DNA from: Ferrovibrio sp. | Lineage (GTDB): Bacteria; Pseudomonadota; Alphaproteobacteria; Ferrovibrionales; Ferrovibrionaceae | Reading direction: 5' to 3' | DNA: 52,910 nt | Assembly (NCBI RefSeq): GCF_029255545.1 | Contig: NZ_JANLJJ010000035.1 | Coordinates: 8,790 to 61,699 of the forward strand | Part shown: one piece after another, positions 34,646 through 43,030 of the stretch | How the letters are laid out: each line of letters begins with the position of its first letter | Numbering within the stretch: position 1 is the stretch's first letter | The notes under the pieces: model-generated | Told to the model about the DNA's origin: nothing | Database searches by the model: none | What the model saw: only the letters and a program-made list of their open reading frames with translations | Program-made: the position numbers and the translations under genes

Positions 34646-35166
34646 TGACCAAGCAGCGCATCGGGTTGTACCCGGGCACGTTCGATCCGGTAACCAAGGG
34701 CCATTACGACATCATCAAGCGCGCCGGCAAGCTGGTCGACAAGCTGGTGGTCGGCGTTGCCGTCAATATCGGCAAGGGACCGTTCTTCTCGATGGAAGAG
34801 CGCGTCGAGATGGTGCGCGAGGAAATCGGGCCGCTGATGCCCGGCGCCACCGAATTCGAGGTCAAGCCGTTCTCCAACCTGCTGATGCATTTCGCCATGG
34901 AGATCGGCGCGGTGATGATCATCCGCGGCCTGCGCGCGGTGTCTGACTTCGAATACGAGTTCCAGATGGTTGGCATGAATGCCCGCCTGAATGCCGAGAT
35001 CGAGACCGTGTTCCTGATGGCTTCCGATAACCACCAGTTCATCGCCTCGCGCCTGGTGAAGGAAATCGCCATGCTGGGGGGCGATATCAACCCATTCGTG
35101 TCGCCTCGCGTGGCTGAACGTATGCGCGCCCGGGTGGCGGCGCTGAAGGCCAATGGCGATGCCTGA
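34645..35166 (+). CDS. coaD: Phosphopantetheine adenylyltransferase
   Basis: A 173-residue nucleotidyltransferase, fourth step of coenzyme A synthesis: 4'-phosphopantetheine plus ATP gives dephospho-CoA. The family motif GTFDPVTKGHYDII, the RGLRAVSDFEYEFQM segment and ASRLVKEIAMLGGDI are present. ATG 34645 overlaps the gyrA stop codon and follows GGGGAGG at ideal spacing. gyrA-coaD-cyclophilin order is common in alphaproteobacteria. Confidence 0.97.
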   Translation: MTKQRIGLYPGTFDPVTKGHYDIIKRAGKLVDKLVVGVAVNIGKGPFFSMEERVEMVREEIGPLMPGATEFEVKPFSNLLMHFAMEIGAVMIIRGLRAVSDFEYEFQMVGMNARLNAEIETVFLMASDNHQFIASRLVKEIAMLGGDINPFVSPRVAERMRARVAALKANGDA

Positions 35167-35728
35167 GATGACGATACTGCGCCGGCATGTGCTCTCGCTG
35201 GCCCTGGCGGCCGCCCTGGTTCTGCCGTCTGCCGCCTTTGCCCAGCGCATCGATGATCCGGAAAACACCCTGATCATGGAGCTGAAGGATGGCGGCCGGG
35301 TGGTGATTGCCATGCGGCCCGACCTGGCGCCCAAGCATGTCGCCCGGATCAAGGAGCTGGTGCGCAAAGGCTTTTATGACGGCATCGTGTTCCATCGCGT
35401 GATCCGTGGTTTCATGGCCCAGACCGGCGATCCCACCGGCACCGGCATGGGCGGCTCGGGCCAGAAGCTGAATGCGGAATTCAACCGCGAACCGCATAAG
35501 CGCGGCACCGTGTCGATGGCCCGGGCCCAGAGCCCGAACAGCGCCGACAGCCAGTTCTTCATCTGCTTCGAGGACGCGCCTTTCCTGGATGGCCAGTACA
35601 CCGTCTGGGGCAAGGTGACGTCCGGCATGGAAGCCGTTGACCGCATCAAGAAGGGTGCGCCCGGCAGCGGGCAGGTCGATGGTCCAGACAAGATCATCCG
35701 GCTGCGGGTCGCAGCCGACGTCAAGTAA
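35159..35728 (+). CDS. Exported cyclophilin-type peptidyl-prolyl isomerase
   Basis: A 189-residue cyclophilin with an N-terminal signal peptide (LRRHVLSLALAAALVLPSAAFA, cleaved near residue 28), so it acts in the periplasm, catalysing proline cis-trans isomerisation during folding. Core motifs FHRVIRGFMAQTGDP, GGSGQK, and the segment ending SQFFICFED are intact. ATG 35159 lies 9 bp after GAAGG and overlaps the coaD end; ATG 35153 and 35168 are alternatives. It is the twin of the cytoplasmic cyclophilin encoded 16 bp downstream. Confidence 0.93.
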   Translation: MPEMTILRRHVLSLALAAALVLPSAAFAQRIDDPENTLIMELKDGGRVVIAMRPDLAPKHVARIKELVRKGFYDGIVFHRVIRGFMAQTGDPTGTGMGGSGQKLNAEFNREPHKRGTVSMARAQSPNSADSQFFICFEDAPFLDGQYTVWGKVTSGMEAVDRIKKGAPGSGQVDGPDKIIRLRVAADVK

Positions 35729-35744: not shown

Positions 35745-36227
35745 ATGAGCGCGGATATCGAAAACACCCTGTATCTGGAGCTGAAGGATGGTCGTGTGAC
35801 CATCATGCTGCGTCCCGATCTGGCGCCCAATCATGTTACCCGCATCAAGGAGCTGGCGCGCCAGCATTTCTACGACGGCCTGAAATTCCATCGCGTGATC
35901 GAGGGTTTCATGGCCCAGACCGGCGATCCGCGCGGCGACGGCACCGGCGGCTCGGGCCAGAAGCTGGACGCCGAATTCAACGATGCGCCGCATAAGCGCG
36001 GCACCTGCTCGATGGCGCGGGCCCAGAATCCGAACAGCGCCGACAGCCAGTTCTTCATCTGCTTCGCCGATGCCCGTTTCCTCGACCGGCAATACACGGT
36101 CTGGGGAGAAGTGACGGAAGGCATGGAGCATGTCGACGCGATCAAGCGTGGCGATCAGGCCCGCAACGGCAGCGTAAGCGATCCGGACAAGATCGTGTCC
36201 CTGCGCGTCGCTGCCGACGTCGCCTGA
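35745..36227 (+). CDS. Cytoplasmic cyclophilin-type peptidyl-prolyl isomerase
   Basis: A 160-residue cyclophilin without a signal peptide, closely similar over its full length to the exported protein encoded just upstream (shared FMAQTGDP, GGSGQKL, PNSADSQFFICF, RVAADV ending). Catalytic Arg in FHRVIEGFMAQ is present. GAGGAG precedes ATG 35745. The pair looks like a tandem duplication followed by sorting to two compartments; the pair is common in alphaproteobacteria, so the duplication is old. Confidence 0.94.
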   Translation: MSADIENTLYLELKDGRVTIMLRPDLAPNHVTRIKELARQHFYDGLKFHRVIEGFMAQTGDPRGDGTGGSGQKLDAEFNDAPHKRGTCSMARAQNPNSADSQFFICFADARFLDRQYTVWGEVTEGMEHVDAIKRGDQARNGSVSDPDKIVSLRVAADVA

Positions 36228-38984: not shown

Positions 38985-39479
38985 TTATTCAGCCTCGTCG
39001 TCATAATACGTCACATTGAGAAGCTGCTCGATCCGCTCGCCGCCATCCACGGTCAGCGGCATCGTGATCGACTCAAACTGCACGAAGCTGCGATCGACGA
39101 AATAATAGCTGCCGACCGCGCGGAGCGGTTTTTTCTCATCGGCGATCCATGACAGGCCCTGATTGAAATCGGCATAGGCCGGCTCGCTCATGATCTCGTC
39201 GACGAATCTGCCGGTCGGGTCGCGGCCGGAATACTGGCTGATCAGCGTGCCATAGAGCCGGATGCGGAACCGCTGGCCCGTTTCGGTGCGCACCACTTCG
39301 TAAATCAGGATGCGCGGCAGGTAGGGGCGCAGCACGAAGGGGGAGAGGTCGGCGCGGTCAGGCGCAATCCGGCCGGCGCGTTTTTCCTCCCATAAAGCCG
39401 CCAGCTCATGCAGCTCGGGCCGGATGAAACGCAGGCTGGGATCGAGGCGGAATCTGCTCTCGACGATCTGCCGGTTCAC
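38985..39479 (-). CDS. PAS-domain protein of the PAS_5 type
   Basis: A 164-residue soluble protein in which residues about 15-150 resemble the single-PAS proteins (PAS_5) abundant in Rhodospirillales: LRFIRPELHELAALWEEKR, the LPRILIYEVV strand, the FRIRLYGT strand with YSGRDPTGRF, and a C-terminal YYFVDRSFVQFESITMPL. There is no output domain, so it could be a sensory partner, a ligand-binding protein, or an uncharacterised relative. It lies 82 bp downstream of the tRNA-Lys gene on the same strand. Confidence 0.78.
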   Translation of the reverse strand: MNRQIVESRFRLDPSLRFIRPELHELAALWEEKRAGRIAPDRADLSPFVLRPYLPRILIYEVVRTETGQRFRIRLYGTLISQYSGRDPTGRFVDEIMSEPAYADFNQGLSWIADEKKPLRAVGSYYFVDRSFVQFESITMPLTVDGGERIEQLLNVTYYDDEAE

Positions 39480-39561: not shown

Positions 39562-39637
39562 TGGTGAGCCCGCCGGGATTCGAACCCGGGACCTCTCGAT
39601 TAAAAGTCGCTTGCTCTACCAGCTGAGCTACGGGCTC
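39562..39637 (-). tRNA. tRNA-Lys (anticodon UUU)
   Basis: A 76-nt cloverleaf on the minus strand with encoded CCA. Acceptor stem GAGCCCG/CGGGCTC, D arm GCTCAGCTGGTAGAGC, anticodon loop CTTTTAA (anticodon UUU, bases 39603-39605 on the plus strand approximately), and T arm CCGGGTTCGAATCCCGG are all recognisable. The anticodon stem pairs only its lower three positions; the upper two are A27-G43 and G28-A42. Confidence 0.93.
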
Positions 39638-39786
39638 ACAGAGGTCTGTCAGACAGGAGTCTGTCAGTGATCCTTCGGGCGGGCATGCCGCGCCCGAAAG
39701 CGCGGCGACCATAGGTCGGTCGTCCGTCCCCGTCAACCTACTCGATCTCGCGAAAAATCAGGATGTTGCGCCAGCCGGACCGGGTT
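39638..39786. other. Gap beside tRNA-Lys
   Basis: This 149-bp stretch holds the upstream region of tRNA-Lys. TCTGTCAG occurs twice (39645-39652 and 39660-39667) and CTGTC-A-GACAG is a small palindrome (39646-39656). At 39774-39808 nested inverted repeats (GCCGGACC/GGTCCGGC and CCGGGT/ACCCGG) mark the left end of the inverted TPR gene half. Confidence 0.5.
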
Positions 39787-40713
39787 TCAGACCCGGCTGC
39801 GGTCCGGCGGCAGGCCGCGCGCGAACAGCCTGAGGGGCAGGCTGCCGATCTCGATCCAGGCATCCACCGGCCCATGATCCTTCAGCCAGGCGTAGTCAAG
39901 GACATGTCGTTGCCCGACCCGTTCCTGCCGGCTGGCAACGACGACGGCTCCGGGCAAGCTGCGGGCCAGCAGGGGGGCCAGCCGCGCCTCGCATTCCACA
40001 ACCAGTTTTCCGCAGAGCGGCTGCAGATCACGCAGGTCGCTGGCGAAGCGGATCTGGTCGCCGATTCCTTGCTCCGCCGTCACCAGCAGGCACCGTCCGC
40101 CCATATCCTCGCCCTGCCAGCGCGGCGCGGTGAGGCCGGTGCGGATGACCTCCGGATTGGCATCGGGGCGCAGGCGGTATTCATAGTCATCCAGCCCGGG
40201 TTGCCAGATGCCCAGGCTGAGCAGCATGGTGGCCCGCGCCATGCGCAGGCTGCGGTTGTCTGGCTCCAGCGTCACGGCCCGATCCAGCCGGGCGCGGGCG
40301 AGGGGCATATCGCCGCAGCGGTAAGCGGCTTCGGCAGCCTGGCTGAGCATTTCCGGCCAGTCGGGATGCAGGGCCAGCGCCTGCTCCAGCCAGGGCCCAG
40401 CTTCCGCCGCGGCGCCCTGTTGCAGCAGCAGGCTGCCCAGCGCGGCCGCGCGGGCCGCGGCAAACCCGACATCGGCAGGATAAAGCCGCAGGCCGGTTTC
40501 CGCCGCCGACCAGGCTTCGGCCCAGCGGCGGTCCTGCCGGTACAGCATGGCCAGGCTGCGCAGCAGGCCGGCATCGGCCGGCGCCAGCCGTCGGGCGCCG
40601 GCGAAGTGCGATATCGCGGCCCCGACATCGCCGGCCTGCAAGGCGGCAAGGCCGACCTGTGTCAGCGCGGCGGCGGAGTTTTGCGGAAGTGGTGTCATCT
40701 CTGGCGCCAGCAT
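39787..40713 (-). CDS. TPR protein: N-terminal half of a split TPR/glycosyltransferase-9-like gene
   Basis: The 308-residue product has tetratricopeptide repeats over about residues 10-180 (repeat cores such as GLAALQAGDVGAAISHF and LYPADVGFAA) and then the first part of the glycosyltransferase-9-like domain that usually follows them: WQGEDMGGRCLLVTAEQGIGDQIRFA, VECEARLAPLLAR and IGSLPLRLF. It stops just there, where relatives go on. The missing continuation is encoded on the opposite strand, beginning 24 bp beyond this gene's start (40737-41300). Starts at 40713 or 40698 are possible, neither with a good ribosome-binding site. Read as the product of an inversion; whether it is expressed is unknown. 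Confidence 0.7.
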   Translation of the reverse strand: MLAPEMTPLPQNSAAALTQVGLAALQAGDVGAAISHFAGARRLAPADAGLLRSLAMLYRQDRRWAEAWSAAETGLRLYPADVGFAAARAAALGSLLLQQGAAAEAGPWLEQALALHPDWPEMLSQAAEAAYRCGDMPLARARLDRAVTLEPDNRSLRMARATMLLSLGIWQPGLDDYEYRLRPDANPEVIRTGLTAPRWQGEDMGGRCLLVTAEQGIGDQIRFASDLRDLQPLCGKLVVECEARLAPLLARSLPGAVVVASRQERVGQRHVLDYAWLKDHGPVDAWIEIGSLPLRLFARGLPPDRSRV

Positions 40714-40736
40714 GAGGGGATGCTTAAGCTGCCGCA

Positions 40737-41300
40737 ATGCTTTCCGGATTCCTTCAGGCTGATCCGGCCGCCATCGACGCCCAGCGCCGCCGTATGGGCG
40801 CCATGGCCGGCGGACGGCCCCGCATCGGCCTGTCTTGGCGCAGCGCCAATGCCGATTTCGGCCCGCAGAAATCACTGCGCCTCGACGATTTCACGCCGCT
40901 GTTCGCCGCCGTCGATGCGTTCTGGGTCGACCTGCAATACGGCGACACGACTGCTGAACGGACGGCCCTGCAGGCCGGGCAGGACATTGCCCTGTGGCGC
41001 GATCCCGCCATCGATCCGCTGCGCGACATGGATGCCGCCGCGGCCCAGTATGCCGCCCTCGATCTGGTGATCACCACCAGCAACACCGCCGCCCATCTGG
41101 CCGGGGCGCTGGGCCTGCCGGTCTGGCTGCTGCTGCCGGCGCCGGGTTACGGGCTGCTCTGGTACTGGTTCCTGGATCGGCCAGACAGTCCGTTTTACTC
41201 CAGTTTGCAATGTTTTCGGCAGGAGAGGCCCGGCGACTGGACCGGACCGGTGGGGCTGGTCGCCATGGCCCTGAAGGCCCGGTTCGGGCCGAAACCGTAG
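40737..41300 (+). CDS. C-terminal half of the split TPR/glycosyltransferase-9-like gene
   Basis: The 187-residue frame begins with what is normally internal sequence (FLQADPAAIDAQRRRM) and continues with the last part of the glycosyltransferase-9-like domain: RIGLSWRS, SLRLDDFTPLF, LVITTSNTAAHLAGALGLPVW, LLPAPGYGLLWYW and FRQERPGDW. The complementary first half is the minus-strand gene at 39787-40713. The frame is closed by TAA at 40725-40727 and no Shine-Dalgarno sequence stands at a useful distance from ATG 40737, as expected for an internal fragment. Possibly not translated in this arrangement. Confidence 0.7.
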   Translation: MLSGFLQADPAAIDAQRRRMGAMAGGRPRIGLSWRSANADFGPQKSLRLDDFTPLFAAVDAFWVDLQYGDTTAERTALQAGQDIALWRDPAIDPLRDMDAAAAQYAALDLVITTSNTAAHLAGALGLPVWLLLPAPGYGLLWYWFLDRPDSPFYSSLQCFRQERPGDWTGPVGLVAMALKARFGPKP

Positions 41301-41394
41301 CGTCCGTTACCAGATTACAACCTTCGGGGGCCTGTTTTTTGCTTCGCAGTTGCGGAATAATGTCCTGCATCCGGAAGAAGGCCGGAGGATGAGG

Positions 41395-41586
41395 ATGATG
41401 CCCGTGTTTTACGTTGAAGGCGGTATTTTCAAGGACTTGGCCGACCCGGCGCCGATCGCGGGTACCGAGGAGCGCTACGGTCCGTTCCAGACCGAGCGGG
41501 AGGCCGACCAGATCTGGCGCGCCCGCATGGCCGACAAGATCGATATCTGCAATCACCGCCTGCGGGTCATCCAGCGCGACGCCTGA
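41395..41586 (+). CDS. DUF4170-type small protein
   Basis: A 63-residue soluble protein beginning FYVEGGIFKD and continuing with a GPFQTEREADQIWRARM segment, the pattern of DUF4170 proteins found widely in alphaproteobacteria. Function is unknown. GGAGG at 41384-41388 stands 6 bp before ATG 41395; ATG 41398 is a near-equal alternative, giving the same protein less one Met. Confidence 0.7.
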   Translation: MMPVFYVEGGIFKDLADPAPIAGTEERYGPFQTEREADQIWRARMADKIDICNHRLRVIQRDA

Positions 41587-42829: not shown

Positions 42830-43030
42830 ATGAGCCGGGAAAAGCTGGTGGCTTTCCTGCGCGTGGCAGGGCCAGAGCGCACGACCGAGATACTCAAGCG
42901 GTTGCCGCCGCAGGAGGCTCTCGCCGTGCGTCAGGCGCTTGACCAGATGCCCGCCGTGCCGTCTGCCCATGTCGATCAGGCCGCCGATGCCGCAGCCACC
43001 TTCGTGGCGGCGATCACGCATAAACGGTGA
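42830..43030 (+). CDS. Hypothetical small helical protein (66 residues)
   Basis: A short soluble protein, predominantly helical, with the segment LVAFLRVAGPERTTEILKRLPPQEALAV near its start, resembling a FliG-like or armadillo-type helical hairpin but too short to assign. ATG 42830 follows CAGGG. Its GTGA stop overlap couples it to the exported protein downstream. Function unknown. Confidence 0.5.
   Translation: MSREKLVAFLRVAGPERTTEILKRLPPQEALAVRQALDQMPAVPSAHVDQAADAAATFVAAITHKR

Follow-up and report, generated by a model that had tools for sequence, protein, structure and literature searches.

The window analyzed here is a stretch of 52,910 nucleotides from Ferrovibrio sp. (genome G000; 4.11 Mb in 116 contigs), in which two half-genes lie on opposite strands with their start codons facing one another across a short spacer (Table 1). 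The N-half reading frame ends in ...GSLPLRLFARGLPPDRSRV, the C-half frame starts with MLSGFLQADP and ends with FGPKP, and the two together encode 490 residues. A preliminary description of this DNA had read the minus-strand frame as TPRs followed by the first part of a glycosyltransferase, and the plus-strand frame as the missing remainder of a protein of about 500 residues. Both readings were borne out, the former by Pfam TPR families, fold matches, and alignment, and the latter by the combined length and by the position at which the halves meet, a linker between two domains. The start proposed there for the minus-strand frame, the ATG at 40713, is indeed in frame, but the ATG at 40698 is the start that aligns with the relative in another genome of the genus (G005) and is favored here.

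Table 1. Features of the divergent pair and its immediate surroundings, with positions as numbered in the window
Feature	Position	Strand	Length	Remarks
tRNA-Lys(ttt) gene	39562..39637	-		left neighbor; context
Nested hairpin over the N-half stop codon	39775..39807	-		strong fold; probable 3'-end element
N-half	39787..40698	-	303 aa	TPR repeats and predicted N-terminal (acceptor-side) Rossmann domain of a GT-B glycosyltransferase
Spacer	40699..40736		38 bp	separates both start codons
Palindrome CTGGCGCCAG	40701..40710		10 bp	perfect; also in the G005 spacer, not in that of G007; read by eye
TANNNT box TAAGCT	40725..40730	+		6 nt before the C-half ATG; possible -10 element of a leaderless transcript
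C-half	40737..41300	+	187 aa	predicted C-terminal (sugar-donor) Rossmann domain; fold match to E. coli heptosyltransferase II
DUF4170 gene	41392..41586	+		adjoins the C-half; Pfam; context

The preliminary description had also placed nested inverted repeats at the left boundary of a supposed inversion and a 14-bp imperfect inverted repeat near both of its ends. The nested repeats are present. Instead of marking an inversion boundary, they form the hairpin over the N-half stop codon, which looks like a 3'-end hairpin and not like a recombination site. We rejected this hairpin as a dispersed repeat: its core, allowing up to three mismatches, occurs at three sites elsewhere in the genome, compared with eight for a control pattern. 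The 14-bp repeat exists as well, with 12 of 14 positions matching, but it is no better than chance. Between the junction zones, the highest-scoring ungapped inverted match reached 8, and 103 of 300 random draws of window pairs did at least as well (a few draws less than 200 bases apart were skipped yet counted among the 300). A nearby invertase gene, proposed as something to look for, was not found: there was no recombinase among 19 window proteins examined with Pfam, five of which matched no family, in the part of the neighborhood that was scanned.

Other genes of the window were noted in passing. A PAS_5-domain gene (38985-39479) adjoins the tRNA-Lys gene, an adjacency found in four of the five species of one clade (G000, G002, G005, and G006); in G001 the two genes are approximately 2.9 kb apart. 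Tandem cyclophilin-type peptidyl-prolyl isomerase genes are located at 35153-35728 and 35754-36227, and two copies are present in six of nine congener stretches, the remaining three being shorter on that side or lacking the region. Within the conserved block adjoining the split pair, a 65-residue ORF (42833-43030) scores 23.5 bits against the FliG N-terminal domain, which is below the cut-off of 25. The names queA, tgt, and SDR gene, used for other genes, are presumptive.

Complementary halves of a GT-B glycosyltransferase

Placed end to end, the two proteins were aligned with 27 full-length TPR-glycosyltransferases, the closer ones, hand-picked from 75 different ORF sequences that match the C-domain (in some cases, overlapping pieces of one gene are counted separately). 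In the alignment columns filled in at least 40% of rows, the halves are complementary and meet in the inter-domain linker, adjacent to the YLxADP stretch with which the second domain begins. A match to the N-half is also present in 68 of the 75 ORFs, mostly with the N-half part first, and a single PHROG family matches both proteins, the N-half at 319-374 and the C-half at 438-560. Pfam TPRs, fold matches, and the 68 ORFs matching both parts place the TPRs upstream of the GT-B part, as in FlmG-like enzymes. The genome of the window itself carries six fused paralogs, with open frames of 511-753 residues and C-domain identities of 45-47%. One near-copy (L046) was removed before trees and conservation counts, leaving 26 fused rows.

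Pfam TPR families are matched in the N-half. Neither half matches any Pfam glycosyltransferase family, and the C-half has no Pfam, NCBIfam, or PDB sequence match up to E = 1. Structures predicted separately for the two halves were confident, with mean pLDDT values of 90.3 (N) and 89.4 (C). Residues 155-344 of E. coli heptosyltransferase II (1psw), the C-terminal half of that enzyme, align with the C-half model (Z 14.3, 167 residues, 3.6 Å, 17% identity), as does the bacterial OGT homolog XcOGT (Z ~10). For the N-half model, matches to O-GlcNAc transferase and SPINDLY extend over the TPRs and the start of the catalytic part, at identities of 13-20% and with the TPRs dominating the match. A search of plasmid DNA returned 20 records, 17 of them from Azospirillum, with matches covering 3-11% of the query.

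Selection, conservation, and rarity of the pair

Of nine congeneric genomes besides that of the window, two have the pair in the same head-to-head orientation beside the DUF4170 gene: G005 (61% identity to the window protein for the N-half and 69% for the C-half) and G007 (47% and 53%). The preliminary description had set its reading of one gene broken in two against the case in which homologs in relatives are naturally two divergent genes, and this latter arrangement is the one present in both relatives. No internal stops occur in the six half-genes of the three species. Ratios of dN/dS (Nei-Gojobori, pairwise alignments, 95% limits from codon bootstrap), of which single values are rough because synonymous divergence is high (0.64-1.18), were 0.47 (0.35-0.62), 0.51 (0.38-0.68), and 0.58 (0.43-0.76) for the N-half and 0.37 (0.25-0.55), 0.39 (0.24-0.57), and 0.33 (0.21-0.48) for the C-half in the three species pairs. 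Three-way instead of pairwise alignments shift these ratios slightly (0.56 vs. 0.51 for the N-half in G000/G007, 0.30 vs. 0.33 for the C-half in G005/G007). With all upper limits at or below 0.76, both halves are under purifying selection, the N-half being less constrained than the C-half. For three fused ortholog pairs of G000 and G005, the ratios were 0.48, 0.32, and 0.32 in the N part and 0.37, 0.34, and 0.41 in the C part. Constraint on the C-half equals that on the intact enzymes, and the N-half is at or slightly above the top of the fused dN/dS range. Other frames of the same DNA (G000/G005) gave ratios of 1.35-1.69 for both N and C. The exception was one antisense frame (0.47 for N, 0.52 for C), with ratios equal or close to those of the coding frame, which we rejected as a gene because it contains 3-5 stops per sequence (5 and 3 in N, 3 and 3 in C).

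Residues conserved among fused proteins are largely retained. The C-halves keep 37, 37, and 34 of 40 fused-conserved columns, within the range of left-out fused proteins (33-40 of 40-46), and the N-halves keep 27, 28, and 28 of 36, toward the bottom of the corresponding range (25-36 of 36-39). The low retention in the N-half results in part from missing TPR columns; the N-half of the window has about one TPR fewer than that of G005. Every split pair retains the same 18 of the 21 columns that are invariant among the 26 fused proteins; those not retained throughout are one alanine of the TPR part (a gap) and positions N169 and C153. All three pairs contain EQGxGD and arginines 239 and 246 in the first domain, as well as the stretches WRS, KS, QYG, and SNTxxHLAGxLGxP in the second.

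Across the ten congeners, both halves are together at the site in three genomes and both absent in seven; given this absence, the pair is dispensable. The DUF4170 gene and the genes beyond it adjoin the C-half in G000, G005, and G007. The pair is missing at the site in G001, G002, and G006, and in the latter two the tRNA-Lys gene lies approximately 300 bp from the DUF4170 gene. In G003, G004, G008, and G009, a gene that we take from its sequence to be MscS-like and a flagellin gene (Pfam) occupy the site in place of the pair, and G007 has the pair plus MscS-like and flagellin genes. The G007 C-half additionally carries an N-terminal extension of short SHIAG/PHIAG repeats (L067:6250-6307, minus strand), which is not present in G000 or G005.

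A midpoint-rooted tree of four neighboring genes separates two deep clades, one with G000 and G005 and one with G007. Provided that this root holds, the pair would be as old as the genus and would have been lost twice. The three split proteins cluster in both domain trees, with support of 93/89 (C) and 100/100 (N), and they have two replacements in common, N169 being leucine and C153 phenylalanine in place of the tryptophan present in all 26 fused proteins. This grouping, together with the two shared tryptophan replacements, makes a single origin of the split likely. The N- and C-domain trees do not agree with good support on a nearest fused relative of the split clade. We found no outgroup with a fused gene at precisely this position; elsewhere in the family, the other genera have only distant matches to the anchor neighbor (23-36% identity), so that a fused ancestor at the site is not traceable there.

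The split appears to be rare. Among 18 genomes of the family, only the C-domains of G000, G005, and G007 lie in frames of 187-210 residues, and the other matches listed lie in frames of at least 477. In a sample of the class (385 genomes, 30 with a match; E <= 1e-30), no other C-domain among the matches listed lies in a frame shorter than 436 aa. The corresponding frames in a sample of the phylum (398 genomes, at least 81 with a match; E <= 1e-20, at most eight candidates per genome scored) are, among the matches listed, at least 338 aa long save one. This exception, a 123-aa frame (G547:C94), was rejected as another short split C-domain, as it extends to the edge of a 5,242-base contig.

Relation to FlmG and to other GT-B enzymes

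GT-B enzymes bind acceptor and donor through separate Rossmann domains, and alignment and models place the two domains of the pair on separate chains, as in Alg13/14. Alg13/Alg14 is related to MurG and acts in lipid-linked glycan synthesis, unlike the split pair, and it is not known to contain TPRs. This UDP-GlcNAc transferase is described as likewise a GT-B protein split between its Rossmann domains, with the donor domain as a chain of its own, and the few natural separate-domain GT-B enzymes reported are stated to be all close to it (PMC10937113). The same study describes an engineered precedent, in which one pair of separately made GT-B domains assembles and is active, and another artificially split pair, NB1//CB1, that is inactive (PMC10937113). 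If our reading is true, the pair would represent a second natural GT-B split unrelated to Alg13/14, a test bed for mutual GT-B domain recognition, and a natural example for the mix-and-match GT-B engineering treated in that study (PMC10937113). It would thus be relevant to research on both gene fission and GT-B enzymes.

Two other groups of enzymes resemble the pair in part. The C-half model shares its fold with the C-terminal half of 1psw, a member of the GT9 heptosyltransferases (1psw, WaaC), although the C-half fails the Pfam Glyco_transf_9 (GT9) sequence model; GT9 heptosyltransferases are single chains that are not known to contain TPRs and have a lipopolysaccharide acceptor. O-GlcNAc transferase and SPINDLY likewise combine TPRs with a catalytic start resembling the N-half, and XcOGT resembles the C-half, but these are single-chain proteins. 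As a case of fission, cox2a/cox2b of Campsomeris mitochondria are reported to derive from one gene that became two complementary genes, with an apparent heterodimer (PMC5374615). That was an insertional fission in an animal mitochondrion with halves 3 kb apart, compared with 38 bp here (PMC5374615). Among the open-access papers listed (preprints aside) on gene fission with inversion and on head-to-head genes, judged by titles and abstract openings, there was no head-to-head split enzyme, and nothing was found in the open-access literature for intragenic inversion or Cps14F/G.

By its architecture the pair can be likened to FlmG of Caulobacter crescentus, which has N-terminal TPRs and a C-terminal GT-B part and which is described as a flagellin O-glycosyltransferase whose TPR part alone interacts with flagellins in a two-hybrid test (PMC7591256). 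FlmG is one chain of 596 residues (PMC7591256), whereas the GT-B domain is here shared between two divergent genes, with two ORFs on opposite strands in each of three species. The relatives in this genus stand among flagellin genes. Such genes lie inside or beside tandem fused paralogs in six genomes (G000, G003, G004, G005, G007, and G009), and in G007 also close to the pair; beside the pair in G000 and G005 there is none. Based on these positions, flagellin is probably the acceptor, and the comparison suggests that the pair is an FlmG-like protein O-glycosyltransferase with flagellin as its likeliest substrate.

Tandem arrays of at least two fused TPR-glycosyltransferase genes are located at G000:C99 (L140), G005:C53 (L070), G007:C85 (L071), G003:C1 (L069), G009:C2, and G004:C148. 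Their copy number varies among species of the genus, and the arrays suggest an expanded flagellin glycosylation.

A NeuB-family match is present in the three pair-bearing genomes and also in G001, G002, and G006 (six of ten congeners), which would fit a nonulosonic acid as the sugar donor. Such a donor is not implied by the family, since no NeuB match was found in G003, G004, and G009 (G004 and G009 being incomplete genomes) despite fused paralogs beside flagellin.

Proposed origin and expression of the pair

We consider it probable that this arrangement, conserved in three species under purifying selection and with its motifs retained, goes back to an ancient fission by inversion that gave rise to a working, natural two-subunit TPR-GT-B glycosyltransferase, probably FlmG-like. 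The break in an ancestral TPR-GT-B gene would have fallen in the linker that joins its Rossmann domains, with in-place inversion of the 5' part as the simplest cause, and both pieces would have stayed functional as divergent genes. One subunit with the TPRs and the acceptor domain and another with the sugar-donor domain probably rejoin as a heterodimer to form the active site, and the C-half would be made leaderless. Inversion is the likely, simplest origin because the pair consists of complementary parts of a single gene in head-to-head arrangement, and to this extent the preliminary description holds. The meanings that it attached to the inversion do not. The presumed event is old, not recent; the pair is conserved and constrained in three species, not disabled; and recurrence of the arrangement in three separate genomes contradicts an assembly artifact. 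Should the midpoint root hold, an enzyme presumably divided by flipping half its gene has been maintained by selection since a time before the earliest divergence within the genus.

It is conceivable, though unlikely, that the halves have parted in function, with the TPR half alone serving as a flagellin binder or regulator, the donor half taking another role, and the transferase not being rebuilt. The two-hybrid interaction reported for the FlmG TPR part alone with flagellins (PMC7591256) and the different constraint on N and C are in line with such a divergence. Yet EQGxGD and arginines 239 and 246 of the N-half would be superfluous for a mere TPR binder, and the halves are co-present or co-absent at the site in all ten genomes. 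We assign a similarly low probability to an origin without inversion, from two divergent duplicate glycosyltransferase genes that each lost a complementary half. Tandem paralog arrays in six genomes of the genus and the lack of a well-supported common fused neighbor of the split clade in the N and C trees would be compatible with duplicates, but two independent complementary deletions would have to end at one linker point, and the halves meet in the linker across a spacer of just 38 bp.

A pseudogene decaying after a disabling inversion is very improbable: no half-gene has an internal stop, the dN/dS limits are below 1 with ratios near those of intact paralogs and with no sign of relaxed selection (other frames 1.35-1.69, the stop-ridden antisense frame excepted), and the motifs persist, even though the pair is missing from the site in seven congeners, the N-half is about one TPR short, and Pfam assigns neither half to a glycosyltransferase family. 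A reversible switch toggling the enzyme, suggested by the geometry alone, can be dismissed almost entirely, as species 31-53% divergent in protein all show the split state in one orientation, the flanking inverted repeats do not exceed chance (103 of 300 random draws as good), and the 19 scanned proteins include no recombinase. Overall, the comparative sequence data make a functional, naturally split glycosyltransferase the most likely identity of the pair.

Tentatively, the two subunits may be expressed from the single 38-bp head-to-head control region, with a leaderless donor subunit and with parts that could be dosed or exchanged separately, for example, with fused paralogs. In G000 (TAAGCT), G005 (TAAGCT), and G007 (TAAACT), exactly 6 nt separate a TANNNT box from the C-half ATG, a spacing found at only 8 of the window's 1,872 ATGs, both strands counted. 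This is the position reported for leaderless bacterial genes in a survey, approximately 12 bp upstream when counted from the first T (PMC3160421), and the same -10 motif was reported for Mycobacterium tuberculosis in a second study (PMC3898074). The conserved TANNNT-N6-ATG suggests that the C-half is expressed leaderless, which would explain its missing ribosome-binding site; this reading is a lead only, as the survey detected leaderless genes in just 2 of 117 alphaproteobacterial genomes (PMC3160421). Read by eye, the spacer of G000 also contains two blocks that are conserved in G005. In G005 (L066), the palindrome CTGGCGCCAG lies within a short reading frame of five codons, the stop of which overlaps the start of the N-half.
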